Shown here piece by piece: positions 12,918 to 33,167 of a stretch of DNA of 64,000 nt. The first letter of the stretch is position 1, and the number at the start of each line of letters is the position of its first letter. Source of the DNA: Ruegeria sp. SCSIO 43209 (GTDB lineage: Bacteria; Pseudomonadota; Alphaproteobacteria; Rhodobacterales; Rhodobacteraceae); assembly GCF_019904295.1 (NCBI RefSeq), contig NZ_CP065361.1, positions 1-64,000 on the forward strand. The letters run 5' to 3'. The position numbers were made by a program, and so were the translations under genes. The notes under the pieces are model-generated. The model saw only the letters and a program-made list of their open reading frames with translations, was not told the DNA's origin and ran no database searches.

Positions 12918-13082
12918 GGTCAGGGTCCTTGTCTCGCCGGACCCGGATGAGCCTCTCTCTATCCTTTCAAGCCCGGCACCCGGGCTTCCCTTTCTCTGGC
13001 TTTCACTGTGCGTTGACGTGTGAAGTGGTCCCATCTTTTCGGACAGGTTTGCAGCGTTTCTAAGGTGTATCGGGTTTAGGTT

Positions 13083-14413: not shown

Positions 14414-14872
14414 CTAGCTCACTGTTTGATTTTCCGAACCCACTTCCGCGAGCAAAATCTGCCGAATTGAGCTTTCAATTTTGACTTTTCCAAATGTTGA
14501 AGCATCTCGGAAAACTGACTTCGTTTCGCATTCGAAGCAAATCAAGTCATGCTGACGGCCGACAACTTTTAGACCAACTGAACTTTCCCCGACATGGACC
14601 ACATAGACCTCGCATGCTAGGTTCGCGCCTGCTTTCACCGGCGCATGGAATTGTAGGTCCATAGAGACAAAAGGCATGGCCGTGTTTCTTTCCGTGAGTA
14701 GAAAAAGCCAGCCCCGGCCTGAAAGCAAATCGTCCCAGAAAGTCTCGATCGCTTCCAGCGCGAAATTCGTGATCCGGCCAGTAAAGGCGATTCCCAGCTG
14801 GTCACAGTCGCCAAAGAAAATCCTGCGTTCGAAGGCAAATCGTGGTTTAAATTCTGTTTCTGGTACATTCAT
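14414..14872 (-). CDS. Acyl-CoA thioesterase (4HBT/hotdog family)
   Basis: A 152-residue hotdog-fold protein. FERRIFFGDCDQLGIAFTGR carries the aspartate and substrate loop of the YbgC/4-hydroxybenzoyl-CoA thioesterase type. It is followed by the central helix (NFALEAIETFWDDLLSG) and beta strands (MPFVSMDLQFHAPVKAGANL). It would release free acids from acyl-CoA, possibly buffering CoA esters of the surrounding dicarboxylate pathway. It is the last gene of the minus-strand catabolic set, 73 bases after the AraC gene. Confidence 0.75.
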   Translation of the reverse strand: MNVPETEFKPRFAFERRIFFGDCDQLGIAFTGRITNFALEAIETFWDDLLSGRGWLFLLTERNTAMPFVSMDLQFHAPVKAGANLACEVYVVHVGESSVGLKVVGRQHDLICFECETKSVFRDASTFGKVKIESSIRQILLAEVGSENQTVS

Positions 14873-14945
14873 TGCAGCGTTACGGGCTCAACATTTCTTT
14901 GTCTCTGGTGCGTGACAGCGATAGGAAGGAATAGTTTTCCGGTAA

Positions 14946-15827
14946 TTATGCCATGCGCCGGAATTCGGCGGGGGTCGCGCCTGTCATTTTTCGAAAAGTT
15001 CGACTAAAATGACTCTGATCTGCAAAACCGCAGTCAAGCGCGACCACTTTCAGGGGGGCATTACCCTTTCTCAGCATCTCCTGGGCCTTCGATATTCGCT
15101 TGCGCAAAACATATGCATACGGTGCCAACCCAAACTCCGCCTTGAACTGACGCGAAAAGTGAAACTGGCTGAAACCGATAGATGCGGCCATGTCTTCCAG
15201 ACTGAGGTTTTCACCTAAGCAGCTTTCAACGAGATCGATGATTCTCTGCCTTTGAGCAGGGCTGAAGTTCGAGTTTGCGTCGCTGGTCAAAGAGACCTTG
15301 GCGTACTGACGCAGAAGGTGAACGGCGATCTGGATGCGCAGGGCGTCGATGATCAATCTCTGGCCGATTCCACCGTTCTTTAGCTCATTCTCTAGCAATT
15401 GGATGCAGTTCAGGATACAGGGGTCCTTCGCAGACAGACAATCATTGATCTCAATGGACTTCGGGTCACGATCAAAGACCGAAAGGGCCGTGTTTTCGAG
15501 TTCACTGTGACTGAGATAGACGTGTCTAACCGTGATAGGCTCGGACCAACTCCAAGTGGATTCCTCTGCACGCGTGAGCAAGGAAATCCTACCTTTCTCT
15601 ACGCGCGCGCTTTGCCATGGGCCGCCACTCGTGCGGCGCATAGTGGTTGGCGCGCCATCATATGCAACAATCATATAGTCGCGCATGGGGGGAATTGCCG
15701 CGTCTTGTCGCTCATAACGATAGCCCTTCAGGGTAATGCCGTTCCAGTTGCACCCGGAACTGTCCAACGTAGTCGTGCCGGGAATCCATTCGGGTATCCG
15801 GTCCGGTGATATGAGCAGTCTTTCCAT
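14946..15827 (-). CDS. AraC/XylS-family transcriptional regulator
   Basis: A 293-residue protein starting at MERLLISPDRIPEW behind the strong ribosome site AGGGAGG. The N-terminal two-thirds is an effector/dimerisation domain. The C-terminal 100 residues hold two helix-turn-helices (LSLEDMAASIGFSQFHFSRQ and LKVVALDCGFADQSHFSRTF) and the family end GATPAEFRRM. In Acinetobacter, the cyclohexanone genes are controlled by ChnR, also an AraC/XylS protein, so this is the leading candidate for the pathway activator. It sits downstream of the CoA-transferase gene by 52 bases. Confidence 0.85.
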   Translation of the reverse strand: MERLLISPDRIPEWIPGTTTLDSSGCNWNGITLKGYRYERQDAAIPPMRDYMIVAYDGAPTTMRRTSGGPWQSARVEKGRISLLTRAEESTWSWSEPITVRHVYLSHSELENTALSVFDRDPKSIEINDCLSAKDPCILNCIQLLENELKNGGIGQRLIIDALRIQIAVHLLRQYAKVSLTSDANSNFSPAQRQRIIDLVESCLGENLSLEDMAASIGFSQFHFSRQFKAEFGLAPYAYVLRKRISKAQEMLRKGNAPLKVVALDCGFADQSHFSRTFRKMTGATPAEFRRMA

Positions 15828-15879
15828 CTTGGCCTCCCTGAACTTTTTCACGATCGTCCGCTTGAGCTGAAATTTCGGC

Positions 15880-17085
15880 TTAGGTCGTCTCGCGCATCCG
15901 CGGTTCTTCTCGAACGATATTCGCTTGAGTCAATCTATCGATTTCAGCTTCTGTCAGTCCAGCCTCGCTAAGCAACTCCCTACTATGCTGCCCGAAGCGA
16001 GGCGGTGCCGCGCGAACCGCTCCGGGGGTACGCGACAAGCGTGCTGGCACGCCGGTGCCGCGGTAGGTGCCAACTGATACCACCATGCCGCGATGTCGGG
16101 TGTGTGGATGCTCCAACGCTTCATTCACATTCCGAACGACTCCGGCGGGAATCCCAGCTTTCAAAAGCACCGGCTCAAGTTTGAAGGCGTCATGTTGCAC
16201 CAGGCACTCTGACAAGACCTCTGTCATCTCTGACCGATGCGCAAGACGCGCGGCATTGTCGGCAAATCGTGGATCGCAGGGCACCTCAGGTAGGCCAAGC
16301 ACGTCACAGAGTTTTGCGAACTGACCATTGTTACCGATAGCCAGATAGAGTTTGCCATTACTTGTTTCGAACATGTCGTATGGTACGATATTTGGATGCC
16401 CATTGCCGGTCGCCATTGGTATCTGTCCGGACATGAGGGAATTAGCCGCTTGGGGATGCATCATGCTGATCGCGCAATCATATAGCGGCACTTCGATGGC
16501 TTGGCCCAATCCGGACCGGCCCCGTTCCAAAAGTGCGGCGAGAATAGCGTTACAGGCGATCAGACCGGTGCCGATGTCCACGATGGGCGTACCCATGCGT
16601 GTCGGGCCTTCGGAGGGATTGCCGTTGATGCTCATGAGGCCCGTCATAGCTTGTACCACGGCGTCATAGCCGGGAAAACCGCCAAGTGGGCCATCGGAAC
16701 CAAATCCAGTCACATGGCAGAGTACCAGTCTAGGAAAACGTGCCCTGAGAACATCAGCATAACCAAGCCCCCATTTTTCAAGAGTACCAGACTTAAAATT
16801 GTGAACTAAAACATCCGCATCCTGAAGAAACCGCAAAATCAGGTCGCGCCCTTCCGGTTGCTGCAGATCGATAGCGATGGACCGCTTGTTGCGGTTGGCG
16901 CCAGAGAAATAAGCGCTGAGTTCATCATTGAAAGGCGGGCCCCAACTGCGGGTCTCGTCGCCCAGAGGCGGCTCCACCTTGATGACCTCAGCGCCATGAT
17001 CCGCAAGCATTTGGGTGCAGTAAGGCCCGCCCAGCACGCGGCTGAGGTCGACCACCTTGATCCCGTCCAATGAGCCAGCCATCAA
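15880..17085 (-). CDS. CaiB/BaiF family III CoA-transferase
   Basis: A 401-residue protein. The N-terminal signature is GIKVVDLSRVLGGPYCTQMLADHGAEVIKVE; the conserved GANRNKRSIAIDL and VLVHNFKSGTLEKWGL follow. The catalytic aspartate of family III enzymes is in MGTPIVDIGTGL. In the inferred pathway it would move CoA from succinyl-CoA to a dicarboxylic acid such as adipate; human SUGCT shows that family III enzymes can use dicarboxylates. Its ATG overlaps the stop of the alcohol dehydrogenase gene (ATGA). The exact acid is not visible from sequence. Confidence 0.88.
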   Translation of the reverse strand: MMAGSLDGIKVVDLSRVLGGPYCTQMLADHGAEVIKVEPPLGDETRSWGPPFNDELSAYFSGANRNKRSIAIDLQQPEGRDLILRFLQDADVLVHNFKSGTLEKWGLGYADVLRARFPRLVLCHVTGFGSDGPLGGFPGYDAVVQAMTGLMSINGNPSEGPTRMGTPIVDIGTGLIACNAILAALLERGRSGLGQAIEVPLYDCAISMMHPQAANSLMSGQIPMATGNGHPNIVPYDMFETSNGKLYLAIGNNGQFAKLCDVLGLPEVPCDPRFADNAARLAHRSEMTEVLSECLVQHDAFKLEPVLLKAGIPAGVVRNVNEALEHPHTRHRGMVVSVGTYRGTGVPARLSRTPGAVRAAPPRFGQHSRELLSEAGLTEAEIDRLTQANIVREEPRMRETT

Positions 17086-18236
17086 AGCGCCTCCTGATAG
17101 AGGCGCGACACATCTTCGGCTGTCATGTCGCGCGGGTTGGTCTCCAGCAATCGCGTGATACCGGTCACGACCTCATTAGCCATTCCGGGAATGGCTGCCT
17201 CGGTCACTCCGACACCAGAAAGTCGAGACTCAAGTCCGCTTTCGACTAGCATCCGTTCCATCTCGTCGATCAGGCCATGGGCCGCAGCCGCATCAGAGTT
17301 GAAAGGCCGCGAGGGCAGTAGTAACCGCGATAGACGAGCATATTCAGCTTCTGCAACGGGCATGTTGAACCTCATCACTGGTCCTGCGACCAGAGCGTTT
17401 GCGTGCCCGTGAGGAACCTTGAAACCTGTTCCAAGTGGGTATGACAAGGCATGAATCGCCCCCACGCTGGCATTAATGAAGGCCATCCCAGCCAGTGTCG
17501 CCCCCAACAGCATGGCCTCTCGCGCTGACAGGTCCGAAGGCGTTTCCATGACGATTGGTAAGTTCTGACCGAGAAGCACCAGCGCTTTGTCCGCCATTCC
17601 ATCGGAAATGGGATTCTTTCTGGTGCGACTGGTTACTGCCTCAATGGCGTGAACCATTGCGTCTAACGCCGTGGCCGCTGTGATGTGACGAGGCATTCCC
17701 AATGTTAGCTTTGCATCTAGCAAGGCAACGTCAGGCAGAAGCTGCGGTGCATATACCGCTTTTTTTTCGTGGCTTTCCGAAGTCAGCACGGACACCCATG
17801 TTACCTCTGATCCGGTCCCTGCCGTGGTTGGCACCTGGATCAGTGGCAAGCGTTTATCGGTGACCTGATTAATCCCGATCATGTCCGTAATCGGTTGATC
17901 GTTGGCTACCGCCGCTGCGATGACCTTGGCAGTGTCCAGTGAACTGCCGCCGCCAAGTCCGATGATTCCGTCAGCACCAAAGGCCCGCGCGACCTCTACC
18001 GCGGCCTCGACGACAGCGATCGGGGGGTCCGCTTCGACTTTATGAAAAATCTCAACCTCGATGCCAGCAGCCCTAAGTGAGGCGGCTGCCTCGTCCGCAA
18101 AACCACAGGCCAATATGCCCGGGTCCGTCACGACCAGCGCACGGGTGCAAGACAAATCTTGCATCAGGCTGCCGATCCGGCCAAGCCCACCGCTCTCGCA
18201 GACGATCCTCGGGGTGGAAAGGAAATTGAAGTCCAT
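17082..18236 (-). CDS. Iron-containing alcohol dehydrogenase
   Basis: A 384-residue Fe-ADH. NAD-binding motifs are IIGLGGGSSLDTAKVIAA and QVPTTAGTGSEVT. Metal ligands are in ATALDAMVHAIEA, GAIHALSYPLGTG and VPHGHANALV. It would oxidise an omega-hydroxy acid such as 6-hydroxyhexanoate to the semialdehyde. This step is done by a zinc enzyme (ChnD) in Acinetobacter, so an iron-type enzyme here is a non-orthologous replacement by inference. It lies 18 bases after the acyl-CoA dehydrogenase gene and overlaps the CoA-transferase gene. Confidence 0.9.
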   Translation of the reverse strand: MDFNFLSTPRIVCESGGLGRIGSLMQDLSCTRALVVTDPGILACGFADEAAASLRAAGIEVEIFHKVEADPPIAVVEAAVEVARAFGADGIIGLGGGSSLDTAKVIAAAVANDQPITDMIGINQVTDKRLPLIQVPTTAGTGSEVTWVSVLTSESHEKKAVYAPQLLPDVALLDAKLTLGMPRHITAATALDAMVHAIEAVTSRTRKNPISDGMADKALVLLGQNLPIVMETPSDLSAREAMLLGATLAGMAFINASVGAIHALSYPLGTGFKVPHGHANALVAGPVMRFNMPVAEAEYARLSRLLLPSRPFNSDAAAAHGLIDEMERMLVESGLESRLSGVGVTEAAIPGMANEVVTGITRLLETNPRDMTAEDVSRLYQEAL

Positions 18237-18254
18237 AGTTTGTCTTCGCTCCTG

Positions 18255-19415
18255 TTAAGCTGCTGCAGTGCGGATCATATTCCGCGCGATCAGTATTTGC
18301 TGAATCTGGGTTGTCCCCTCGTAGATGCGGAAGAGACGCACATCGCGATAGAAGCGCTCGACCGCATATTCGGCCATGTATCCTGCACCGCCGTGGATTT
18401 GCACTGCGCGATCGGCCACTCGACCTACCATCTCACTGGCAAACATCTTGCAGCAGGCAGCATCAGTCGACACGTTCTGACCAGCGTCCTTGCGGCGTGC
18501 TGTTTCTTCGATCATGCAACGCGCTGCGAAGGCCTCGGCGCGACTGTCAGCCAGCATGGCTTGGATCAGTTGCTTTTCAGCGATGGGTTCACCGAATTGT
18601 TTGCGTTCCATCGCATAGGATAGGCTGTCACGGATCAGCCGTTCGGCGGCGCCCACACAGACGGCAGAAATATGCAGTCGGCCCCGGTCAAGGACTTTCA
18701 TTGCTGTCTTAAAGCCCTTGTTCAGACGGTCCGGCCCGCCGATAATGTTCGCGGCAGGCACGCGGACATTGTCAAGGATGACGTCGCATGTGTGCGAGCC
18801 CTTCTGCCCCATCTTCCTGTCAGGCTGGCCAAGCGTTATGCCTGGCGTCCCTGCCTCGACGAGAAAGGCGCTTACGCCGGCAGAACCTTCCGCCTCTGGA
18901 TTGGTCCGGGCAAAAACCGTGAATAGATCGGCACGCGGTGCATTGGTAATGTAGCGTTTCGTGCCGTTCAGAAGGAAATCGTTACCGTCACGCCGCGCCG
19001 TAGTGCGCAGACTGCCAGCATCCGACCCAGCATCTGGCTCGGTTAGGGCGAAGGATGCGATCATATCTCCGGACGCGAGAGCTGGTAGATACTGCGCCTT
19101 CTGCTCGTCGGTTCCATCGATGATGATTCCCTGAGAGCCGATCCCGTTGTTGGTGCCAACTAGCGACCGGAACGCAGGCGAAGCCTGGCCAAGAACGAAA
19201 GCGGCTTGCACTTCCTCTATCATCGACAAGCCGAGCCCGCCGAAATCTTCCGGGATCGACATGCCGAAAAGGCCCATCATGCGGATTTCATCGACCAGCA
19301 TCGGCGGAATCACATCCTCGTCGGCGACGCGATCCTCGTAAGGGATTAGTCGCTCTTTCACGAAGCGGTCGAGCGCGTCGAGAAACTGGGAAAGGGTATC
19401 TTTATCAAGGGCCAT
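18255..19415 (-). CDS. Acyl-CoA dehydrogenase
   Basis: A 386-residue flavoprotein of the usual family length. FALTEPDAGSDAGSLRTTA is the FAD/substrate signature, QIHGGAGYMAEYAVERFYRD the FAD/ETF region, and the catalytic Glu is in YEGTTQIQ. It would make a 2,3-enoyl-CoA from adipyl-CoA (or another linear acyl-CoA) and pass electrons to EtfAB, whose genes are in the same island. It starts 15 bases after the IclR gene and 18 bases before the alcohol dehydrogenase gene, so the minus-strand genes likely form one operon. Confidence 0.92.
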   Translation of the reverse strand: MALDKDTLSQFLDALDRFVKERLIPYEDRVADEDVIPPMLVDEIRMMGLFGMSIPEDFGGLGLSMIEEVQAAFVLGQASPAFRSLVGTNNGIGSQGIIIDGTDEQKAQYLPALASGDMIASFALTEPDAGSDAGSLRTTARRDGNDFLLNGTKRYITNAPRADLFTVFARTNPEAEGSAGVSAFLVEAGTPGITLGQPDRKMGQKGSHTCDVILDNVRVPAANIIGGPDRLNKGFKTAMKVLDRGRLHISAVCVGAAERLIRDSLSYAMERKQFGEPIAEKQLIQAMLADSRAEAFAARCMIEETARRKDAGQNVSTDAACCKMFASEMVGRVADRAVQIHGGAGYMAEYAVERFYRDVRLFRIYEGTTQIQQILIARNMIRTAAA

Positions 19416-19430
19416 GATGCTCTCTATTGT

Positions 19431-20225
19431 TCAGGGTGCGTGCGCCGCAACGCGGCGGACAAGATCGACAAGGCGGTGCGCGACGTCGCTTTCGATCCAG
19501 TCGCGCGTAAGGGTTTGCGAAGGGCCACCGCAGTTGAAGGCAATAATGGGTGAGCCGTCCTTCGGCACGAAGGGCACCGCTACAGCGTTCACATCACGTT
19601 TCCACTCCGTGAAGGACGTGCAGTAACCGTGCTGTTGGTAGTCTGCGATAGCTGCTTCGATTCCGGGCTGCACATTCGGCCAGTTGTCGCCTTCATGTTC
19701 CTCCACAAGGGCCAGAATTCTGGCCCGCTCATCCGGGTCGTGCGCCGCTATGCAGGCGCGACCAACCGCGGTCGTGGCCAGTTTAATATGGGCACCAACC
19801 TCGATCGCCAGCGTGACGGCATTAGTGCCCTTGCACCGCTCCAGATAGACCATCGATAGCCGGTCACGACTGGCCATGGCCACCGGCATGCCTGTGTAAT
19901 CAGCCAGCTCCTGCATAAAGGGCTTCGCCAGTTGCCGCAGCGGAATCCCTGCAAGGCAGGAGAAACCCAACGAAAGCACTGGAGGGGCCAGTCGATAACG
20001 TGCTGTATCCGGGTCGTAGCTGAGGTATTCCAGCTTGTTCAGTGTATAGGCCAGCCGGGAGACCGTCGATCTGCTCAGGCCAGTGCGCTCGGCCAACTCA
20101 CCGTTCCCCAGAGCCTCCCCTTCCCGCCGAAAGGCCCGCAACAGCTCCAAGCCGCGCGCCAACGCCGTGACAAAATCGCGATCCTGTTTCTCGGCATCCT
20201 TGGTGCGGTCTTTCCTTGGTCTCAC
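19431..20225 (-). CDS. IclR-family transcriptional regulator
   Basis: A 264-residue protein starting at a GTG with a strong GGAGGG ribosome site. It has an N-terminal winged helix (LLRAFRREGEALGNGELAER, TGLSRSTVSRLAYTLNKLEY) and an effector domain (LGFSCLAGIPLRQLAKPFMQ, AVGRACIAAHDPDERARILA). Members such as PcaR/PcaU control beta-ketoadipate and adipate catabolism. It is divergent from the aldehyde dehydrogenase gene, and an imperfect palindrome at 20307-20325 lies between them, so it probably controls both arms. Confidence 0.9.
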   Translation of the reverse strand: MRPRKDRTKDAEKQDRDFVTALARGLELLRAFRREGEALGNGELAERTGLSRSTVSRLAYTLNKLEYLSYDPDTARYRLAPPVLSLGFSCLAGIPLRQLAKPFMQELADYTGMPVAMASRDRLSMVYLERCKGTNAVTLAIEVGAHIKLATTAVGRACIAAHDPDERARILALVEEHEGDNWPNVQPGIEAAIADYQQHGYCTSFTEWKRDVNAVAVPFVPKDGSPIIAFNCGGPSQTLTRDWIESDVAHRLVDLVRRVAAHAP

Positions 20226-20306
20226 GATATCCCTCCTCGGAAAGAATTATGCGTCTTGAAACACACCTAAACGATCGATAACGTCCGAGTCAATACTGCG
20301 GTAAAC

Positions 20307-20325
20307 TTTCCCGCTATGCGGAAAA
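20307..20325. promoter_or_regulatory. Candidate IclR-type operator
   Basis: TTTCCCGC, 3 bases, then GCGGAAAA: an 8+3+8 palindrome with 7 of 8 positions matching, in the divergent region between the iclR-type and aldehyde dehydrogenase genes. Size and GC-centred/AT-edged form suit IclR-family boxes. Assignment to this regulator rests on position. Confidence 0.5.
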
Positions 20326-20396
20326 TTAAGGTCGTCCACCTAGTCCCATTCGTGCCGGATCCTGCGGATGACACAACTAAGCGAGGGCATAATGCC

Positions 20397-21851
20397 ATGA
20401 AAGAAATGAATTATCCGACCATCCAGCACCTCATCGGACGAGACTGGATCGCTTCTCCCACGCCAGAGGATCGTGCAGTCATAAACCCTGCAAACGGGCA
20501 AACTATCGGACAGATTCCGCAGGCTAGCGCCGCAGATCTAGACCATGCGGTTCACTCGGCCGAATCAGCTTTTCGCCGATGGAAAAACAGCTCTCCCATG
20601 GAACGAAGTGCGATTTTGCGGCGGTTTGCCGACCTGCTGCGCCAAAATGACAGACTGATCGCTGGCTGGATCACTCTCGATGAAGGCAAGCCGCTGGCTG
20701 AGGCTTTGGCTGAGGTCCGCGCCTCGGCTGACCACGTTGACTGGCACGCCGAGGAATGTCGGCGCATTTATGGGCGCATCATTCCATCACGCAGCCCGCG
20801 GGTACAGCAGCTTGTCGTGCGCGAACCGATAGGCGTCTGCCTTGCCATCACGCCTTGGAATTTTCCGCTGAGCCAAGCGGTACGCAAGGTCGCGGCGGCG
20901 CTTGCGTCAGGTTGCACGATGATCTTAAAAGCCCCGGCAGAGGCTCCGGCGGGTTGCATGGCAATTGCTCGCTATCTGCTGGATGCAGGATTGCCCGAAG
21001 GCTGTCTGAACCTTGTCTGGGGTAATGCGGCCTTCATTTCGGAAACTCTAATTGCGCGCCCCGAGGTGCGCAAAATCACCTTCACCGGTTCGGTCGAGGT
21101 GGGCAAGCATCTGGCAGAATTGGCTGGCCGCCATATGAAGCGGGCGACGATGGAGCTCGGCGGTCACGCGCCCGTATTGGTGTTCGACGACACCGATGCC
21201 ACGGCCGCGGCGCGCGCCTTGGCGGTCAACAAGCTGCGCAATGCAGGCCAGGTGTGCATCGCCCCAACCCGGTTTTACGTACAACAAGGCATCTACGATC
21301 GATTTCTGTCCGAACTAGTTTCAGCATTTGAGAGCGTAAAGGTGGGCGCTGGTTTAGCCGAAGGCACGCAGATGGGACCATTGTGTCATCGCGGACGCGT
21401 GAATGCGATGGAAAAGCTCGTCGAGGATGCCCGCGAAAACGGCGCACGGGTGTTGACGGGAGGCAAAAGGCTTGGAAATCATGGTAACTTCTATGCCCCG
21501 ACAATCGTCGATACGCCCAACGACGACATTGACTTGATGCGCGAAGAACCCTTCGGCCCGATTGCTGTCGTCTCGTCTTTTCGTGACATAGAGGACGGAC
21601 TGTCGCGGGCCAACGGGCTACCCTTCGGGCTGGCGTCCTATGTCTTTACCAATTCGTTAGAGCGTGCAGATAAAGCAGCTGCGGGTTTGCAGGCAGGTAT
21701 GGTAAGCATCAACCAGTTCGGCCTCGCTCTGCCCGAGACTCCGTTTGGAGGCGTGAGAGACAGCGGCTATGGGACTGAAGGCGGGACGGAAACCTTCGAA
21801 GGCTATCTCATTACCAAATTTATCTCGCGCAATCGCGCGCCAGTGCTGTGA
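20397..21851 (+). CDS. NAD(P)-dependent aldehyde dehydrogenase (succinate-semialdehyde type)
   Basis: A 484-residue ALDH from ATG 20397 (MKEMNYPTIQ), preceded by GAGGG; an upstream in-frame ATG at 20316 lies in the promoter region and is less likely. Catalytic Glu is in TMELGGHAPVLVFDD and Cys in NAGQVCIAPTRFYV; NAD-binding FTGSVEVGKHL precedes them. The length and sequence are of the GabD/6-oxohexanoate dehydrogenase (ChnE) group. It would oxidise 6-oxohexanoate to adipate in the inferred route. Its stop lies 8 bases before the downstream start. Confidence 0.9.
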   Translation: MKEMNYPTIQHLIGRDWIASPTPEDRAVINPANGQTIGQIPQASAADLDHAVHSAESAFRRWKNSSPMERSAILRRFADLLRQNDRLIAGWITLDEGKPLAEALAEVRASADHVDWHAEECRRIYGRIIPSRSPRVQQLVVREPIGVCLAITPWNFPLSQAVRKVAAALASGCTMILKAPAEAPAGCMAIARYLLDAGLPEGCLNLVWGNAAFISETLIARPEVRKITFTGSVEVGKHLAELAGRHMKRATMELGGHAPVLVFDDTDATAAARALAVNKLRNAGQVCIAPTRFYVQQGIYDRFLSELVSAFESVKVGAGLAEGTQMGPLCHRGRVNAMEKLVEDARENGARVLTGGKRLGNHGNFYAPTIVDTPNDDIDLMREEPFGPIAVVSSFRDIEDGLSRANGLPFGLASYVFTNSLERADKAAAGLQAGMVSINQFGLALPETPFGGVRDSGYGTEGGTETFEGYLITKFISRNRAPVL

Positions 21852-21859
21852 GGATGCCC

Positions 21860-23941: not shown

Positions 23942-23962
23942 GTTGTCTTTCTGTGGTAGAGG

Positions 23963-25009
23963 GAGTCTGTTTTGCAAATGGGGTGATGGCCGTGGTTGCC
24001 CTTTCCCCGGATAAACTTATCCCACAGCTTCCGTAACGGGTATGCCGAGTGCAGTGTATCCGTTCAGGACGGCGATGCGGACTGGGAGTGCCGCGACCTG
24101 ACGGTCAAAGTCCCGCGCTATAAGGCGATGCCCCAGCGACATGACACAGTTCATTTTCGTCTCGACACTGCTTCGGCGGTGGTATCCGCTCCATCGTCGC
24201 CAGAGCGCGCGAGCCAGGCACTTCGCCGCGCGCAGGGCCTCGTTTCGCGCCACGGCTCCGGCGGTGATGGTCTTCCATGGCTTTGCGTTCTTGCGTGGCG
24301 GGATAACGGCGTGGGCACCACGGTCAGCAATTGCGTCGTGGCATTTCCGTGTGTCGTAGGCACCGTCAGCCATGACACTGCCGATCTACTGGTCCGCCGG
24401 GATCTGGTTGAGGAGGTCGGGTAAAACCCATGCATCGCCGATGTGGCTCCCTGTGACCTCGTCACTGCGCGAACCTCCAGTGTTTCCTCGTCAACCCCGA
24501 GATGGATCTCGGTCCAGACGCGCCGTTTGGGTCCACCATGCTTGCGGGCGTGCCACTCGCCTTCGCCCGCGACTTTGATACGCGTGCTGACAGCAGGTGC
24601 AGCGGCCCCTTGGAGCCGCGATTCGAGATGTTCACGGCCAGGGTCTTCTGACGCCGGGACAGGGTGCTGAAGTCGGGCACAGTCCGGACGAGACCAACCA
24701 GCTGCAGCAGGCTCTAGACGAACCCAGTCGTCTACCGGAGCGCCATGCCGAATAACACCTTCATGGAAAGGCAGGTCTGGCTGGAGGCATCGCTGTAGGT
24801 CTGCTGCCGGCCACGACTGCCTATCGGCGCGGCCTCCCAGCTCATTTCGGGGTCGAACCAGATTGCCAGAGCGCCCCGGCGCTTGAGCGCTTCATTGTAG
24901 GCTCGCAAGTTCCTGGTGTTGTAGGTCGGGGGTGCAGTCTGCTCATGCACCCCGGCTACCAAGCCGGGTTCATAAGATGGATCCCGCACGGAATTTGTTC
25001 AACAGAGCC
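23963..25009 (-). mobile_element. Degenerate IS5-family insertion sequence
   Basis: An element of about 1.05 kb. The right end reads GAATTTGTTCAACAGAGCC (24991-25009), and the left end GGAGTCTGTTTTGCAAAT (from about 23962) is its imperfect inverse. It carries only a broken transposase. It separates the aldehyde dehydrogenase-fadB operon from the hydrolase-monooxygenase genes. Ends are approximate. Confidence 0.65.
24017..24989 (-). pseudogene. IS5-family transposase, frameshifted remnant
   Basis: Three separate frames can be strung together as one IS5-type transposase. The N-terminal segment (YNTRNLRAYNEALKRRGALA, IWFDPEMSWEAAPIGSRGRQ) is at 24732-24989. The middle (VPDFSTLSRRQKTLAVNI-like) is near 24600-24690. 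The C-terminal part (VTADGAYDTRKCHDAIADRG-like, VIPPRKNAKPWK) is at 24017-24373. At least two frame changes and substitutions in the conserved end show it is inactive. Unlike the transfer genes, this copy carries substitutions as well as indels and looks genuinely old. Confidence 0.8.
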
Positions 25010-25202
25010 TAGTAGCAGGCATATCTGCCTCACGACAGGCTGAGCAAGATCATACAATTTCCAAAGCAGGTATGTTCAATACACGGTGCATTCTTCGCCC
25101 TTACTCTGAGATCATTGGCGTACGCCTCAGACCGTTTGACGCCTCCGAGATTGGCGACGTCAGGTGGTGGCTTTGCCAAATGTTACTCTTGGGAGGATAA
25201 AT

Positions 25203-26105
25203 ATGGAAATCAGTAGAGAAGCGGATACGCTGCGGGCGCTTTATCAGAATTGGACCGATCAGATGGTCGAGAACCCAGACCTGACGATCGCGAACTTGCG
25301 CAGCATGTTCGATGAATGGGGGCAGCCTGCTCTAGAGCCGGAAAACGTTAGCTACAAAAGCGATCATATCGGAGGAGTCGAGGCTATCTGGGCACTGCCT
25401 GTCGGGGCCGATACCTCGCGTGTAATTGTTTACACTCATGGTGGCGGCTTTGCCGTCGGCTCAGCCGATAGTCATCGGAAAATGGCAGGGCACCTCGCTA
25501 AGGTGCTTGGGGTTACGTCGGTGATCCTGCACTATCGACGCGCACCCGAGCACCCATTTCCGGCGCAGATCGAAGATGCGGTAGCCGCGTACACAGCATT
25601 GCTGGATAAGGGCTTCAAGGCAAGAAATATTCTGACCGCTGGCGACAGTGCTGGCGGCAATCTTGCCATCGCCAGCGTGCTGAAATTTCGCGAACTTGGG
25701 CTGCCACTGCCCGGAGCGGTCATCGCATATTCGCCCTGGCTAGACATGGCGATGCGCGGGGAAACACTGGAAACCAACGCGGAAACCGATGCGCTAGTCG
25801 GGAAACCGATTCTCGAAGCGATGGCGGGAATGTTCCTCGGTGAAGGCACTGATCAGCTAAATCCGTTGGCCAACCCTCTGGAGAACGATTTCACCGGTTA
25901 CCCGCCGCTTTATATCAATGCCGGAGGGGCTGAGACGCTTAGGAGCGATGCCGAGCGGTTGCACGAAAAGGCCAAGGCACAGGGCGTAAATGTGACCCTG
26001 TCTATCGTCGAAGGCATGCAGCATGTCTTTCCCGCGCTTTCGGGACGCGCGCCCGAGGCGAACGAGGAACTTGGTCGCATCGCCGCATGGTATCAGGCCC
26101 TCTGA
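25203..26105 (+). CDS. Alpha/beta hydrolase (HSL type), probable lactone hydrolase
   Basis: A 300-residue hydrolase starting at MEISREADTLRALY after a GGGAGG ribosome site. The oxyanion motif is YTHGGGFAVGSADSHR and the nucleophile is in AGDSAGGNLAIA; an Asp in TLRSDAERLHEKA and His in GMQHVFPAL complete the triad. Family and size match ChnC-type caprolactone hydrolases, which open the lactone made by the Baeyer-Villiger enzyme. The monooxygenase gene follows 125 bases downstream, supporting this role; a general esterase cannot be excluded. Confidence 0.85.
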   Translation: MEISREADTLRALYQNWTDQMVENPDLTIANLRSMFDEWGQPALEPENVSYKSDHIGGVEAIWALPVGADTSRVIVYTHGGGFAVGSADSHRKMAGHLAKVLGVTSVILHYRRAPEHPFPAQIEDAVAAYTALLDKGFKARNILTAGDSAGGNLAIASVLKFRELGLPLPGAVIAYSPWLDMAMRGETLETNAETDALVGKPILEAMAGMFLGEGTDQLNPLANPLENDFTGYPPLYINAGGAETLRSDAERLHEKAKAQGVNVTLSIVEGMQHVFPALSGRAPEANEELGRIAAWYQAL

Positions 26106-26113
26106 CACCTGTA

Positions 26114-26151
26114 CTCGCACTGCATTGCGGTGCGGTGCGGTGCGGTGCGAG
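26114..26151. repeat. Pentanucleotide tandem repeat inside a hairpin
   Basis: Four copies of TGCGG (26126-26145) plus TGCGA lie in the leader of the monooxygenase gene. The outer arms CTCGCAC (26114-26120) and GTGCGAG (26145-26151) are exact inverted repeats. Change in copy number would alter the loop without touching coding sequence. Confidence 0.65.
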
Positions 26152-26230
26152 AGAAACCCCTACGACACATTCATCTGCCATCTCACCCGCAAACTGCGGG
26201 GCGGAGCAGTCTTACTCTGGGAGGAGTGAC

Positions 26231-27868
26231 ATGAACATTCAGACTGAGATTACTAAAACATCCGGAGCGGATTACGACGCAGTCGTCATTGGCGCGGGCT
26301 TCGGCGGGCTTTACGCCGTCCACAAACTTCGCAACGAGCAGGGACTGAACGTCCGGGGCTATGACAGCGCCAGTGACGTTGGCGGCACCTGGTGGTGGAA
26401 CCGATATCCCGGTGCGCTGTCGGACACGGAAAGCTATGTCTACCGCTATTCTTTTGACAAAGAGTTGCTTCAAAAAGGCCGCTGGAAAACGCGGTATCTG
26501 ACCCAGCCCGAGATCCTCGAATACATGAACGAGGTGGCGGATCATCTCGATCTCCGACGCAGCTACAAGTTCGACACCAAGGTGGACGGCGCGCACTATA
26601 ATGAAAAAACCGGTCTCTGGAACGTGATCACTGATAGTGGTGAGACAGTTACCGCCAAATACCTTGTCACTGGCCTCGGTCTCTTGTCCGCAACGAATGT
26701 TCCAAAATTCAAGGGCATCGATGATTTCAAAGGCCGTATCTTACACACAGGTGCCTGGCCCGACGGCGTGGACTTGAGCAACAAACGCGTGGGCATTATT
26801 GGCACTGGCTCGACCGGTGTGCAGGTTATTACAGCAACGGCACCAGTTGCAAAACACCTGACTGTTTTTCAGCGCTCTGCACAATATGTCGTGCCGATTG
26901 GGAACACCCCGCAAGACGATGCTACCATCGCAGAGCAAAAGGCAAACTACGATAGTATCTGGAATCAAGTGAAGAATTCTGTTGTGGCCTTCGGCTTCGA
27001 AGAAAGCGTCAAGCCCGCCGAAACCGCCTCCCCCGAAGAACGGGAGCGGGTCTTCGAAGCCGCCTGGCAGCGCGGCGGTGGTTTCTATTTCATGTTTGGC
27101 ACCTTTTGCGATATTGCGACCAGCCAAGTGGCCAATGATGCGGCCGCTGACTTCATCAAGGGCAAAATCAAGAAAATCGTGAAGGACCCCAAGGTCGCAG
27201 AGAAACTGACGCCGAAGGACCTTTACGCCAAGCGCCCGCTTTGCGGAAACAACTATTACGAGGTCTACAACCGAGACAACGTGACCCTCGCCGACGTTAA
27301 GGCCGATCCGATCGCAGAGTTCACTCCGAACGGCATACGTCTCGAAAGCGGCGAGGAGCATGAGCTTGACATCGTAATCTTTGCCACTGGCTTCGATGCG
27401 GTCGACGGCAATTACGTCAAAATGGACCTCCGCGGACGCGGAGGCGTGACCATGCGCGACACTTGGAAGGAAGGCCCGCTCGGTTACCTCGGCATGATGG
27501 AGGTCGACTTCCCGAACTTCTTCATGATCCTTGGCCCTAATGGCCCCTTCACCAACCTGCCCCCCAGCATTGAGACGCAAGTCGAATGGATCGCTGACAC
27601 GATTTGCACGGTGGAAGAAGAGGGGGTTCGAAATGTGGAGCCAACCGTGGAAGCGCGCGATGCTTGGGTTCGCACCTGTCGTGAAATCGCCGACATGACA
27701 CTCTTCCCCAAAGCTGAAAGCTGGATCTTCGGCGCAAATATCCCCGGAAAGAAGAATGCAGTAATGTTCTACATGGCCGGGATTGGCAATTACCGAAATG
27801 CCATTAATGCAGTGAAGGAGGAAGGTTATACATCCCTGATCCGCAACCGCACTGCCGAGAAGGTGTAA
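26231..27868 (+). CDS. chnB: Cyclohexanone monooxygenase-type Baeyer-Villiger monooxygenase
   Basis: A 545-residue type I BVMO starting at MNIQTEITKT after GGGAGGAGTGAC. FAD motif VVIGAGFGGLYAVHKLR, the BVMO fingerprint FKGRILHTGAWP (FxGxxxHxxxWP), and NADPH motif VGIIGTGSTGVQVI are all present. Long stretches resemble Acinetobacter cyclohexanone monooxygenase as I recall it: TVFQRSAQYVVPIGN, FATGFDAVDGNYVKMDL, ILGPNGPFTNLPPSIETQVE and SWIFGANIPGKKN; length is also the same. It inserts oxygen into a cyclic ketone, using NADPH and O2, to give a lactone such as epsilon-caprolactone. Ring-size preference cannot be read from sequence. Confidence 0.9.
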   Translation: MNIQTEITKTSGADYDAVVIGAGFGGLYAVHKLRNEQGLNVRGYDSASDVGGTWWWNRYPGALSDTESYVYRYSFDKELLQKGRWKTRYLTQPEILEYMNEVADHLDLRRSYKFDTKVDGAHYNEKTGLWNVITDSGETVTAKYLVTGLGLLSATNVPKFKGIDDFKGRILHTGAWPDGVDLSNKRVGIIGTGSTGVQVITATAPVAKHLTVFQRSAQYVVPIGNTPQDDATIAEQKANYDSIWNQVKNSVVAFGFEESVKPAETASPEERERVFEAAWQRGGGFYFMFGTFCDIATSQVANDAAADFIKGKIKKIVKDPKVAEKLTPKDLYAKRPLCGNNYYEVYNRDNVTLADVKADPIAEFTPNGIRLESGEEHELDIVIFATGFDAVDGNYVKMDLRGRGGVTMRDTWKEGPLGYLGMMEVDFPNFFMILGPNGPFTNLPPSIETQVEWIADTICTVEEEGVRNVEPTVEARDAWVRTCREIADMTLFPKAESWIFGANIPGKKNAVMFYMAGIGNYRNAINAVKEEGYTSLIRNRTAEKV

Positions 27869-27940
27869 AGAATTCCGCCGGGCATCAAGAATCCCCGGCG
27901 GAACCAATTAAATTTGTTCATGAAAACTAGGGAGAGAGAT

Positions 27941-28696
27941 TTGGGAAGGGTATTCGGAAAAGTCGCACTGGTAACAGGTGGAGCGATGGGCATGGGAAAA
28001 GCCCATTGTGAAACGCTGGCACGTGAAGGTGCGCATGTATTTGTAACCGACCGTGACACGGAAGCGGCTGAAAGCGTAGTGAAAGGTATCATTGAAGCCG
28101 GAGGGAAGGCGGAATTCATTCAACATGACGTGACGCTTGAAGAAGATTGGAAGAATGTCATCTCTACGGTGCAATCAAGTGCTGGTCGGCTTGATGTGCT
28201 AGTGAACAACGCTGGCATTCTCATTCTTAAGCCGCTCCACGAAACCTCGCCTGACGAATTTGACATGACGTTCAACGTCAATGTACGCGGTATTTATCTC
28301 GGCATCCGAGCCGCGGTTCCATTGATGAAAGAGGCCGAAAAGGCATCTATTATCAATATTTCTTCAATCTATGGGATTGTTGGAGCCGCTTCGGCGGGAG
28401 CCTACATTGGATCCAAAGGCGCCGTACGGATGTTGACGAAATCCTGCGCAGTCGACCTGGCTGAAAGTGGCATACGCGTGAATTCGATCCATCCCGGTGT
28501 CATCGATACTCCCATGACAAAAGATCTGCTACACGCCGACGAAGTTACCCGGCAGGCAATTCTGGGGGCGACGCTGCTCAAGCGACCAAGCAAACCTGAA
28601 GAGGTTTCGAATGCGGTCCTGTTCCTCGCATCGGATGAGTCATCGTTCGTTCACGGAGCAGAGATTGTAGTAGATGGCGGTTATACTGCGAATTGA
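27941..28696 (+). CDS. Short-chain dehydrogenase, probable cyclic alcohol dehydrogenase
   Basis: A 251-residue SDR. The TTG at 27941 is chosen because GGGAGAG lies five bases upstream and the protein then begins (M)GRVFGKVALVTGG, as in cyclopentanol dehydrogenase CpnA of Comamonas (recalled). An in-frame ATG at 27920 lacks a ribosome site. Motifs: TGGAMGMGKAH, NNAG, and Ser-Tyr-Lys in INISSIYG and AYIGSKGA; end EIVVDGGYTAN. It would oxidise cyclohexanol or cyclopentanol to the ketone used by the monooxygenase just upstream. Start uncertain, family firm. Confidence 0.88.
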   Translation: MGRVFGKVALVTGGAMGMGKAHCETLAREGAHVFVTDRDTEAAESVVKGIIEAGGKAEFIQHDVTLEEDWKNVISTVQSSAGRLDVLVNNAGILILKPLHETSPDEFDMTFNVNVRGIYLGIRAAVPLMKEAEKASIINISSIYGIVGAASAGAYIGSKGAVRMLTKSCAVDLAESGIRVNSIHPGVIDTPMTKDLLHADEVTRQAILGATLLKRPSKPEEVSNAVLFLASDESSFVHGAEIVVDGGYTAN

Positions 28697-28712
28697 CAGG
28701 GACCCATCCCGA

Positions 28713-28739
28713 GTAACGGCTCGGAATCCGGGCCGTTAC
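28713..28739. terminator. Hairpin between SDR and etfB genes
   Basis: GTAACGGCTCGG, loop AAT, CCGGGCCGTTAC: a 12-bp stem with one mismatch, 16 bases after the SDR stop. No T tract follows. It may be a weak terminator or attenuator separating the ring-cleavage genes from etfBA. Confidence 0.5.
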
Positions 28740-28772
28740 CACCATTGCAAATTTTGAAAACGATAAAAGCCA

Positions 28773-29531
28773 ATGAAAATAATTGCTCCTATAAAACGCC
28801 TAATTGACCACAACGTGAAGGTTCGCGTTAAGGCGGACGGGAGCGGAGTTGATCTCGCGAATGTGAAGATGTCGATGAACCCGTTCGACGAGATTGCGGT
28901 CGAAGAGGCGATCCGGCTGAAGGAAGCGGGCAAGGCGGACGAGGTTGTCGTCGTCTCGATCGGCGTGAAGCAGGCGCAGGAAACGCTGCGCACGGCGCTG
29001 GCGATGGGCGCGGACCGGGCGATCCTGGTTGTGGCCGCCGATGACGTGCACCAGGACATCGAGCCGCTGGCGGTGGCCAAGATCCTGAAGGCCGTGATCG
29101 ACGCCGAGGCGCCGGGCCTGGTGATCGCGGGCAAGCAGGCGATCGACAATGACATGAACGCCACCGGCCAGATGCTGGCGGCGCTGCTGGGCTGGGGCCA
29201 GGCGACCTATGCCTCCGAGGTCGGGATCGAAGGCGATCATGCCGTCGTGACCCGCGAAGTGGATGGCGGGTTGCAGACGATCAAGGTCAAGCTGCCGGCG
29301 ATCGTCACCGCCGATTTGCGCCTGAACGAGCCGCGCTATGCCTCGCTGCCCAACATCATGAAGGCCAAGAAGAAGCCGCTGGATGAGAAGACCGCCGCCG
29401 ATTACGGCGTCGATGTCACCCCGCGCCTGGAGATTGTGAAAACCGCCGAGCCCGCCGCACGGTCGGCAGGCGAGATGGTCGGCTCGGTCGACGAGCTGGT
29501 GTCGAAACTGAAAGAAAAGGGGATCGTGTAA
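28773..29531 (+). CDS. etfB: Electron transfer flavoprotein beta subunit
   Basis: A 252-residue EtfB ([58 protein letters not shown], and the closing [16 protein letters not shown]). With EtfA it carries electrons from acyl-CoA dehydrogenases to ETF-quinone oxidoreductase. Base composition changes sharply inside the gene: the first 15 or so codons are AT-rich like the upstream genes, while the rest is strongly GC-rich with GC third positions. That suggests recombination with a chromosomal copy. It overlaps etfA by one base (TAATG). Confidence 0.95.
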
Positions 29532-30457
29532 TGGCTGTTCTTCTCCTTGCAGAAATCGCCGGTGGCGCGCTGGCGCTGGACGCCACCGCCAAGGCGGTGA
29601 CCGCTGCCAAATCGCTGGGCGATGTGACCGTTCTGGTTGCGGGCCCTGCTGCTGCGGGTCAGGCCGCGTCGCAGATCGACGGCGTGGCGAAGGTTGTGGT
29701 CGCGGATGACGCGGCCTACGCCAACGGCCTGGCCGAGCCGGTCGCCGATCTGGTGGTCAGCCTGGCAGGCAATTATGAACATATCGTTGCTCCCTCCACG
29801 GCAAGCGCGAAAAACATCCTGCCGCGCGTTGCGGCGCTGCTGGATGTGATGGTTCTGTCGGACGTGACGGCCATCCTGGACGGGTCCACGTTCGAGCGCC
29901 CGATCTACGCGGGCAACGCGATGCAGACGGTAAAGTCCAACGATTCCAAGAAGTTACTGACCGTCCGCACCACCGCCTTCGACGCGGCTGGCCAGGGTGG
30001 CTCGGCCGCCGTCGAGGCCATCGCAGCAGCCGGCAACGCGGGCCTGAGCGCCTGGGTCGAGGACAAGGTCGCGGCGTCGGATCGTCCGGAACTGACCTCG
30101 GCCAAGGTCGTGGTCTCGGGCGGGCGCGGCGTCGGTTCCGAGGAAAATTTCGCGATTATTGAAGCACTTGCGGACAAACTGGGTGCTGCCGTCGGCGCCT
30201 CGCGCGCGGCTGTGGACTCTGGGTTCGCACCGAACGACTGGCAGGTCGGCCAGACCGGCAAGGTCGTGGCGCCCGAGCTGTATATCGCGGTCGGGATTTC
30301 CGGGGCAATTCAACACCTTGCGGGGATGAAGGACAGTAAGGTCATCGTCGCCATCAACAAGGACGAAGAGGCCCCCATCTTCCAAATCGCCGATTACGGC
30401 CTCGTCGCAGACCTCTTCGACGCAGTCCCGGACCTGACAAAGGCACTCAAAGAATGA
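29531..30457 (+). CDS. etfA: Electron transfer flavoprotein alpha subunit
   Basis: A 308-residue EtfA. Domain I begins [20 protein letters not shown]; the FAD domain shows [54 protein letters not shown] and [20 protein letters not shown]. Together with EtfB it accepts electrons from the island's acyl-CoA dehydrogenase. It is GC-rich for most of its length, unlike the thiolase gene that follows with an ATGA overlap. Intact and of normal length. Confidence 0.96.
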
Positions 30458-31653
30458 CAAACGTCTATATCTGCGATTACATCCGCACACCAATCGGTCG
30501 CTATGGCGGCGCGCTTTCTTCTGTGCGAGCCGACGATCTTGGCGCAATCCCACTCAGGGCCTTGGCCAGCCGAAACCCGGGGCTAGATCTAGCGACCATT
30601 GACGAAGTGATTTTTGGCTGCGCCAACCAAGCGGGAGAGGACAACCGTAATGTTGCTCGCATGTCGCTTCTACTAGCTGGATTTCCGGATTGTGTACCGG
30701 GGACAACAATGAATCGGTTGTGCGGGTCGGGCATGGATGCGATAATCACGGCCGCCCGCGCTATCAAATCAGGAGAGGCCGATCTCATTGTCGCAGGTGG
30801 TGTGGAAAGCATGTCGCGTGCTCCGTTTGTGATGCCAAAAGCTACAACAGTATTCTCGCGCGAGAATAGTGTGGAAGACACCACCATCGGCTGGCGCTTC
30901 GTCAATAGACTGATGAAGAGCCAATACGGCGTCGACAGTATGCCTGAAACGGCCGAAAACGTGGCTGAAGTCTTCGGCATCAACCGCGCCGACCAAGATG
31001 CTTTCGCCCTACATTCCCAGCAAAAGGCGAGCGTTGCTATGGCGAACGGTCGTTTGGCCCGTGAAATTGTCCCGGTAGAGATTCCTCAGCGAAAGGGGGA
31101 GCCAAAGATCGTCGTACAGGATGAACACCCTCGCGCGAGTACGACTTTGGAAGCGCTCGCCCAACTGAAAACTTTCGTAAAAGCGGATGGCACGGTAACC
31201 GCAGGGAATTCTTCAGGCGTGAACGATGGTGCCGCAGCATTGATCCTTGCCACCAGCGACGTCGCAAAAAAATTTGGCCTCACGCCGGTCGCAAGGGTCT
31301 TGGGCGGCGCAACCGCCGGCGTTGCACCGCGCATCATGGGTTTCGGGCCGGCACCGGCGTCGAAAAAGCTGATGGCGCGACTTGGACTGAAACAAGAAGA
31401 CTTCTCGGTGATCGAACTTAACGAAGCCTTTGCTTCGCAGGGTCTGGCCACACTACGGCACCTGGGGATCGCGGATGATGATGCCCGCGTGAACCCAAAC
31501 GGCGGCGCTATTGCTCTCGGCCATCCGCTTGGCATGTCGGGTGCCCGCATCACCGGCTCAGCGATGCTGGACCTCAAACCTGGAGAAAAGTCGTTGTCGA
31601 CCATGTGTATTGGCGTGGGACAGGGAATTGCAATCGCACTCGAAGCTGTCTGA
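30454..31653 (+). CDS. Beta-ketoadipyl-CoA thiolase-like acetyl-CoA acyltransferase
   Basis: A 399-residue thiolase. The nucleophilic Cys is in MNRLCGSGMDA, the active His in NGGAIALGHPLGMSGAR, and the second Cys in STMCIGVGQG. The stretches YICDYIRTPIGRYGGALSSV, IFGCANQAGEDNRNVARMS and TTIGWRFVNRLMKSQYGVDS are those of PcaF/PaaJ-type 3-oxoadipyl-CoA thiolases. It would cleave 3-oxoadipyl-CoA to succinyl-CoA and acetyl-CoA, the last step of the inferred pathway. This assignment is the main argument for a six-carbon ring as substrate. Confidence 0.9.
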   Translation: MTNVYICDYIRTPIGRYGGALSSVRADDLGAIPLRALASRNPGLDLATIDEVIFGCANQAGEDNRNVARMSLLLAGFPDCVPGTTMNRLCGSGMDAIITAARAIKSGEADLIVAGGVESMSRAPFVMPKATTVFSRENSVEDTTIGWRFVNRLMKSQYGVDSMPETAENVAEVFGINRADQDAFALHSQQKASVAMANGRLAREIVPVEIPQRKGEPKIVVQDEHPRASTTLEALAQLKTFVKADGTVTAGNSSGVNDGAAALILATSDVAKKFGLTPVARVLGGATAGVAPRIMGFGPAPASKKLMARLGLKQEDFSVIELNEAFASQGLATLRHLGIADDDARVNPNGGAIALGHPLGMSGARITGSAMLDLKPGEKSLSTMCIGVGQGIAIALEAV

Positions 31654-33035: not shown

Positions 33036-33067
33036 GTCGCTCTCCCGCAAAAGTTGCGCAGACTATC

Positions 33068-33095: not shown

Positions 33096-33167
33096 CGTAT
33101 TGACTCCATATGACTTTATGGCCTTAGTGTCGTGCAGTAGAAGGGCTCTCGTGGGGAGAGTCCGAAC

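Follow-up and report, generated by a model that had tools for sequence, protein, structure and literature searches.

The stretch analyzed here (the window) comprises 64,000 nucleotides of Ruegeria sp. SCSIO 43209 (NZ_CP065361.1, positions 1 to 64,000) and covers most of a 66,678-base contig in a host genome of 4.6 Mb and 6 contigs. Its positions 14414-31653 carry a putative catabolic island for cyclohexanol and cyclohexanone, consisting of 14 open reading frames, all of them open, which together span every enzyme class that a first-pass annotation had claimed for a route from cyclohexanol to succinyl-CoA and acetyl-CoA. Two divergent gene runs are separated by roughly 170 bases of intergenic DNA (20226-20396): the leftward run reads, in order, IclR regulator, acyl-CoA dehydrogenase (ACAD), iron-containing alcohol dehydrogenase (Fe-ADH), CoA-transferase, AraC regulator and thioesterase, and the rightward run aldehyde dehydrogenase (ALDH), FadB-like enzyme, an insertion sequence (IS) remnant and then hydrolase, Baeyer-Villiger monooxygenase (BVMO), short-chain dehydrogenase (SDR), both subunits (EtfB, EtfA) of an electron transfer flavoprotein (ETF) and PcaF. 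Start codons were revised after those annotated in pTHAF37_f, a near-identical plasmid (offset 558), for the genes of AraC (15827), ALDH (20397), FadB (21860), the HSL-family hydrolase (25203), BVMO (26231) and SDR (27941). The features, with their evidence in brackets, are as follows.

13083-14084, minus strand: IS3-family transposase (rve, HTH_21), left edge of the island (Pfam; annotated as IS3 in pTHAF37_f)
14414-14872, minus strand: 4HBT-fold acyl-CoA thioesterase, edge gene of uncertain pathway membership (Pfam; unmatched in the Roseibium version, L002)
14946-15827, minus strand: AraC/XylS-family regulator, proposed to act at 25044-25082 as an analogue of ChnR (Pfam)
15880-17082, minus strand: family III CoA-transferase, proposed adipate:succinyl-CoA CoA-transferase (Pfam)
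17082-18236, minus strand: Fe-ADH, proposed 6-hydroxyhexanoate dehydrogenase (Pfam; exclusion with the zinc-type enzyme of sister clusters)
18255-19415, minus strand: ACAD, proposed adipyl-CoA dehydrogenase, YEGT motif (Pfam, structure-chain scores, motif)
19431-20225, minus strand: IclR-family regulator (Pfam)
20298-20323, no strand assigned: three-box IclR-like candidate operator in the divergent IclR/ALDH gap (alignment of 11 loci)
20397-21851, plus strand: ALDH resembling succinate-semialdehyde dehydrogenase, proposed 6-oxohexanoate dehydrogenase (Pfam, NCBIfam)
21860-23941, plus strand: FadB-like enoyl-CoA hydratase/3-hydroxyacyl-CoA dehydrogenase (Pfam, NCBIfam, motifs)
24017-24373, minus strand: transposase fragment (DDE_Tnp_1) within the IS remnant of the fadB-hydrolase interval (Pfam)
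25044-25082, plus strand: AraC/XylS-like candidate operator, two half-sites (multi-locus alignment, pattern and shuffle tests)
25203-26105, plus strand: HSL-family alpha/beta hydrolase, proposed epsilon-caprolactone hydrolase (Pfam, NCBIfam, motifs)
26231-27868, plus strand: type I BVMO of the cyclohexanone monooxygenase (CHMO) class, 545 aa (structure-chain scores, UniRef match, tree, motifs)
27941-28696, plus strand: SDR, proposed cyclohexanol dehydrogenase (Pfam, NCBIfam, structure chains)
28773-29531, plus strand: ETF beta subunit (Pfam)
29531-30457, plus strand: ETF alpha subunit, 75% identical to the host chromosomal EtfA (Pfam, protein comparison)
30454-31653, plus strand: PcaF-type 3-oxoadipyl-CoA thiolase (TIGR02430, NF006551)

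Each of the 14 genes gave at least one Pfam match above the curated cut-off, so that the gene and class assignments of the first-pass annotation were borne out. The families comprise 4HBT, AraC HTH, CoA_transf_3, Fe-ADH, acyl-CoA dehydrogenase (N, M, C), IclR and Aldedh as well as ECH and 3HCDH (FadB-like), Abhydrolase_3, FMO-like, adh_short, ETF (two) and Thiolase N and C. Catalytic-type motifs are present in the BVMO and in all eight other enzymes scanned; of the two ALDH patterns, the Cys pattern matched and E.GGK found no match. The island lies between the IS3 transposase gene and, on the right, genes of a type IV secretion system (T4SS), where the first lytic-transglycosylase and virB matches begin at about 33.6-34.1 kb, and its G+C content is 57.0% as compared to 62.4% (1-13000), 64.3% (33000-44600) and 60.7% (46000-64000) in the backbone.

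The BVMO was compared with solved structures, with UniRef and in a maximum-likelihood tree of 42 chosen rows, in all cases without a cyclopentanone monooxygenase reference. It shares 423 of 546 aligned positions (77%) with the UniRef-named cyclohexanone 1,2-monooxygenase of Xanthobacter flavus (Q8VLS4), the other UniRef matches bearing automatic names only. Among solved structures, cyclohexanone monooxygenase chains scored highest (742 to 726 bits), followed by putative flavin-binding monooxygenases (700 to 657 bits), one 'putative monooxygenase' (563 bits), steroid monooxygenase (501 bits), phenylacetone monooxygenase (at most 472 bits) and OTEMO (412 bits). In the tree, the window's enzyme, the Xanthobacter CHMO and the Marinobacter enzyme fall into one starred clade of 21 rows, which also includes roseobacter, Roseibium, Bradyrhizobium, Sphingomonadaceae and Vineibacter sequences; the predicted CHMO type thus stands, and the enzyme does not group with another substrate class. 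The motif FxGxxxHxxxW[P/D], the type I BVMO fingerprint, is intact (FKGRILHTGAWP at 166), and Rossmann motifs are found at 21 (GAGFGG) and 191 (GTGSTG).

The thiolase exceeds the cut-offs of the NCBIfam models TIGR02430 (671.5 bits versus 597) and NF006551 (703.4 versus 605) and possesses the Cys and GHP motifs; this match to a curated 3-oxoadipyl-CoA thiolase model supports the earlier view that a PcaF-like thiolase favours six carbons. The best structure match of the ACAD was another acyl-CoA dehydrogenase (292 bits), glutaryl-CoA dehydrogenase chains reached at most 210 bits, and the NCBIfam glutaryl-CoA dehydrogenase model gave 237.5 bits, below its cut-off of 470. As judged without a cyclopentanone monooxygenase as control, the similarities of BVMO, thiolase and ACAD point to a C6 rather than a C5 substrate.

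The candidate for the 6-hydroxyhexanoate dehydrogenase belongs to the iron family, and its distribution was compared with that of the zinc-containing alcohol dehydrogenase (Zn-ADH) in a listing that covers rows with a BVMO match of at least 50%. In 39 sequences, the window included, the BVMO matches at 74% or more. Of these, 28 carry Fe-ADH, many of them near-identical and therefore not independent cases, since the sequences are related and overlapping; seven carry Zn-ADH (L018, L024, L027, L028, L031, L033, L094), none carries both and four carry neither (L025 and L030 on short contigs, L032, and a short fragment of the window, L083). In several sister clusters the Zn-ADH, mostly with an ALDH, adjoins the same hydrolase-BVMO-SDR genes. 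This mutual exclusion supports Fe-ADH as 6-hydroxyhexanoate dehydrogenase and is the pattern expected if Fe-ADH took over the role of a ChnD-type enzyme.

The island recurs on other replicons. A search of 72,556 plasmid records gave 119 with a BVMO at E 1e-100 or better. In 19 of these the enzyme is at least 80% identical, namely in 12 roseobacter plasmids (at least 95%), six of Roseibium/Labrenzia (82%) and one of Actibacterium (81.5%). In eleven records, a single region accounts for 80% or more of the 18-kb query. The locus collection kept 80 of 184 confirmed loci, and 83 loci entered the gene-order comparison; the order from CoA-transferase to PcaF is unbroken in ten of them (L001-L005, L007, L021-L023, L026), the CoA-transferase sometimes being cut by the locus end, and nine more run from Fe-ADH to PcaF with the left end beyond the fetched flank (L006, L008-L011, L013, L014, L017, L019). 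L015 is rearranged and L012 ends inside the island. The gene order was found in Roseibium/Labrenzia plasmids, in Rhodobacter amnigenus and related metagenome-assembled genomes, and in other roseobacters. In pTHAF37_f and Yoonia pSMR4r-1 the island has the same neighbours, a ParB-like gene on one side and T4SS genes on the other; the Roseibium setting differs (arsA and ABC-transporter genes), and in Rhodobacter amnigenus (L023) RepC- and ParB-domain genes are near. Sampling of the family (295 genomes, nearly one per genus) gave 19 genomes that match at E 1e-100 or better. A close BVMO is confined to the host itself, the matches in the remaining 18 genomes being 36-45% identical, and the trait is thus patchy. 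A CHMO-type enzyme of 68.9% identity is also encoded on the Pseudosulfitobacter pseudonitzschiae plasmid NZ_CP022419.1 (85630-87210).

Two conserved DNA elements accompany the genes. Upstream of the hydrolase, 18 aligned loci share a recurrent block GCA[A/C/G]GA-N16-GCA-N6-T[T/C/G]CAATAC, which forms an AraC/XylS-like site of two 15-bp half-sites with a period of 22 bp and ends 120 bases ahead of the hydrolase start; the Marinobacter site is varied, one base shorter and has a period of 21. Apart from the block, distant members show little conservation of the surrounding DNA: in 13 diverged loci (four of them sequence-identical) the site is 54-73% identical to that of the window and the next 60 bases 27-38%, a table that leaves out L016 and L033, both site-positive by pattern. 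Of 95 sequences (the window plus 94 loci), 37 match the regular expression, with 17 distinct versions of the site, a presence that is partly by construction because the expression was drawn from the same loci. Two loci with BVMOs of 97% and 96% identity, L010 and L015, are not recovered by it. A relaxed pattern matched once in 200 mononucleotide shuffles of the window; a stricter one matched once in the window, never in 100 shuffles and once in the whole host genome. XylS, a member of the AraC regulator family, binds two direct repeats according to a passage in PMC4225500. The divergent gap holds an inverted pair and a third, direct half-site (GCGGAA-type) common to 11 loci, and this three-box pattern matched once in the window and in none of 100 shuffles. 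An additional direct half-site is described for PcaU, PobR and HmgR sites in part of PMC8222616; the element in the gap resembles the PcaU-type operator (inverted pair plus external direct half-site) in arrangement only, its box sequence differing from the consensus. We infer that the AraC and IclR proteins of the island bind the candidate sites 25044-25082 and 20298-20323, respectively.

Taken together, the cluster is best read as an island that moves horizontally and serves the catabolism of cyclohexanol and cyclohexanone, a reading to which we assign a probability of roughly 80% on the basis of sequence comparisons. From enzyme classes and context we infer the substrate of each enzyme, the operon limits, the inducers and expression. 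The SDR would oxidize cyclohexanol to cyclohexanone, the CHMO-type BVMO would insert oxygen to yield epsilon-caprolactone, and the HSL-type hydrolase would open this lactone to 6-hydroxyhexanoate, which Fe-ADH and ALDH may convert to adipate. The family III CoA-transferase would form adipyl-CoA, with CoA probably derived from succinyl-CoA; the ACAD, passing electrons to the island EtfBA, and the FadB-like enzyme would lead to 3-oxoadipyl-CoA, and PcaF would cleave the latter to acetyl-CoA and succinyl-CoA, regenerating the CoA donor. The AraC regulator probably activates the hydrolase-BVMO-SDR and later genes via 25044-25082, and the IclR regulator probably controls both divergent operons via 20298-20323. 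The earlier proposal of a full gene set from cyclohexanol to central metabolites, with a six-carbon ring, is hence supported by the enzyme classes, the BVMO and the thiolase; as completion of the pathway the AraC and IclR families held, and the thioesterase may not belong to it, being at the island edge and unmatched in the Roseibium version.

Several observations weigh against this interpretation. BVMOs are promiscuous, so the CHMO class does not fix the natural substrate. No listed NCBIfam model exceeded its cut-off for Fe-ADH, CoA-transferase (best model succinate--glutarate CoA-transferase, 361 bits versus 750), ACAD, hydrolase, BVMO or EtfA, nor did any among the best 25 matches each for ALDH and the FadB-like enzyme, so that similarity and context are the basis of their substrate assignments. 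For the SDR, the only model passed is a broad one for the subfamily 'glucose 1-dehydrogenase' (251 bits versus 215); its best structure matches are various SDRs, a chain labelled cyclohexanol dehydrogenase scoring far lower (142 bits). The gene set varies, with neither ETF nor PcaF matched in L020 and EtfB alone of the three in L029, and Shimia (L016) has another order with PcaF ahead of EtfBA. The BVMO tree does not unite all carriers of the full set in a single clade: the roseobacter enzymes branch separately from a group in which full and partial clusters occur together, and the island history thus includes losses, exchanges or both. The IS remnant interrupts the plus-strand gene run, and a consensus scan, uninformative in itself, found no plus-strand sigma-70-like promoter in 23800-25300. 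Other points concern the first-pass annotation rather than the proposed function. The combination of ring-opening and adipate genes, called unusual there, is indeed present, but not rare, as it recurs on other alphaproteobacterial replicons. An ETF special to the island did not hold up either: in a comparison of EtfA only, the island protein proved to be a paralogue of the chromosomal one with 75% identity, and a special dedicated ETF was rejected on this ground. Other chromosomal counterparts are a thiolase (62%), a FadB-like protein (41%) and acyl-CoA dehydrogenases (at most 36%); island ACAD and BVMO are without a close counterpart elsewhere in the host.

Self-transmissibility is a further weak point. 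The plasmid location is supported. The backbone has a partial repA match at the contig end, homologues of virB2-B6 and B8-B11, and relaxase and VirD4 regions. As compared to the pTHAF37_f proteins, relaxase lies in five, VirD4 in three and VirB10 in two main pieces in differing frames (50124-53978, 42156-43570), which reflects either broken genes or assembly indels. The 'conjugative-type' label of the plasmid therefore stands for the virB homologues and fails for an intact relaxase, coupling protein and VirB10, and self-transmissibility is not indicated for the sequence as assembled.

Of the competing explanations, the one that survives best is nevertheless improbable, namely that the natural substrate is another alicyclic ketone (with a larger or substituted ring, or a natural product), or else a lactam or the linear caprolactone units of polyesters, cyclohexanol being a mere analogue. 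It draws on the fact that the island has no recognised gene for a cyclohexane hydroxylase and that, among P450 matches in four host open frames, the two examined resemble other P450s and are not obviously of the cycloalkane-hydroxylase type, non-P450 hydroxylase families not having been searched. A beta-lactamase-fold hydrolase lies at 47234-48475 in the window, microplastic and algal isolates are among the carriers, and a section of PMC9477822 describes the degradation of caprolactam by resting cells through a Gulosibacter hydrolase of the ChnC type. On the other hand, BVMO and SDR accompany the hydrolase in nearly all close relatives with sufficient contig (L032 lacks an SDR match) and would be superfluous for a polyester or lactam diet, and a PcaF-type thiolase would fit an unbranched C6 diacid.

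Somewhat less probable still is that the island is decaying baggage, its operon cut by the IS insertion and plasmid transfer lost, which would be compatible with a former cyclohexanol function. The remnant, unreported in the first-pass annotation, lies within 23941-25203 between fadB and hydrolase, upstream of the tandem AraC/XylS-like site, and was compared with L002, L003, L008 and L023. It is present in L003 with 99.9% identity, L008 has a longer stretch matching parts of it, and Roseibium has a 192-base gap at this position without a blastn match to the remnant. Decay is also suggested by the frame-disrupted relaxase, coupling protein and VirB10 and by the Sulfitobacter pontiacus OXR-199 plasmid (L086, NZ_CP139702.1), whose adipate half is 100% identical and in which IS21 and T4SS genes replace the ring-opening half. 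By contrast, all 14 frames are open and BVMOs at least 95% identical are kept in 12 plasmid records. Moreover, the match to the hydrolase-proximal DNA of L008 starts at about 24999, which suggests that the remnant ends ahead of the AraC-type site and that the genes from hydrolase to PcaF would remain under their own control; inactivation of the operon by the remnant was considered, and the conserved site between remnant end and hydrolase argues against it.

The least probable alternative, a C5 route from cyclopentanol and cyclopentanone via valerolactone, 5-hydroxyvalerate, glutarate and glutaryl-CoA, which the first-pass annotation had kept as a second ring, could be served by identical enzyme classes and gains from the undecided SDR subclass and the succinate--glutarate model of the CoA-transferase, but the CHMO-like BVMO (compared without a cyclopentanone monooxygenase reference), an ACAD that is not glutaryl-CoA-dehydrogenase-like and a 3-oxoadipyl-CoA-type thiolase unneeded there make cyclopentanol unlikely, and it was rejected as main substrate.

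The proposed cyclohexanol island can be set beside known systems. The chn cluster of Acinetobacter (ChnA-E and ChnR) converts cyclohexanol to adipate, its ChnD being a Zn-ADH. At the level of enzyme class, and by gene roles rather than a comparison with Acinetobacter sequences, the island has the same set of SDR, CHMO, lactone hydrolase, alcohol and aldehyde dehydrogenases and AraC/XylS regulator; it differs in the Fe-ADH instead of ChnD and in the added adipate beta-oxidation genes, ETF and IclR regulator. The dca (dicarboxylic acid) cluster of Acinetobacter baylyi provides adipyl-CoA dehydrogenase, hydratase/dehydrogenase and 3-oxoadipyl-CoA thiolase functions, as the island would, whereas the latter has a single-chain family III CoA-transferase, a fused FadB-like enzyme and no DcaP-type porin among its genes. 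In a domain scan of 20 chosen flank genes, a DcaP-family porin gene stood next to the BVMO genes of Marinobacter (L033) and a Phenol_MetA_deg-family protein gene near those of Stakelama and Actibacterium. The clusters of Actibacterium pNS6002 and Stakelama (L094, L027) share the arrangement of IclR, ACAD, hydrolase, BVMO and SDR and the AraC-type site, but Zn-ADH and a 48-49% identical ALDH replace the Fe-ADH and island ALDH, and neither FadB nor PcaF was matched. Microbacteriaceae clusters (L047, L048, L052, L054) combine a BVMO with ACAD- and CoA-transferase-like genes, with FadB-like matches in L047, L052 and L054, a PcaF-like match in L048 and hydrolase matches in L047, L048 and L052. Identities are 29-57%, Zn-ADH matches occur in L047, L048 and L052, the gene order is different and no locus seen has the whole set; the clusters are likely a separate assembly.

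Beside the island, the window encodes a beta-lactamase-fold serine hydrolase (47234-48475) adjoining an AraC-type regulator (46097-47179); the matching stretch of AP027376 includes the name '1,4-butanediol diacrylate esterase', and the product is probably an esterase rather than a resistance protein. A DUF6880 protein (48634-49959, 347 bits) and an AbiEi/AbiEii type IV toxin-antitoxin pair (58119-59865) were also detected.

No published description of the island was found among the matches listed in open-licence PMC full texts, nor by term search in PMC9025767 and PMC13386836. In part of PMC9044938 a Sulfitobacter pontiacus plasmid is said to carry 'aromatic carbon catabolism' genes, and a passage in PMC11409719 reports cyclohexanol dehydrogenase and CHMO genes in a marine Oceanospirillales single-cell genome. 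Activation of ChnR by cyclohexanone is described in sections of PMC4738008 and PMC4225500. Each enzyme class of the island is known; the combination would be a mobile, apparently regulated and complete-looking variant with an Fe-ADH swap. The chances seem evenly balanced for the further-reaching view of a self-contained cassette from ring to tricarboxylic acid cycle, with its own ETF, an AraC protein sensing the ketone, an IclR protein sensing the diacid or its CoA ester and Fe-ADH as non-orthologous replacement of ChnD, which would circulate as a unit among marine plasmids and confer cyclohexanol catabolism in one transfer. The pathway is hidden by the gene names in the pTHAF37_f annotation ('glucose 1-dehydrogenase', 'FAD-dependent oxidoreductase', 'NAD(P)/FAD-dependent oxidoreductase' and 'succinate-semialdehyde dehydrogenase'), which would be corrected accordingly, and the two DNA elements provide candidate promoter sites of a marine bacterial system that cyclohexanone would induce. 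If true, the proposed island would explain how marine bacteria could acquire the degradation of alicyclic compounds through plasmid transfer.

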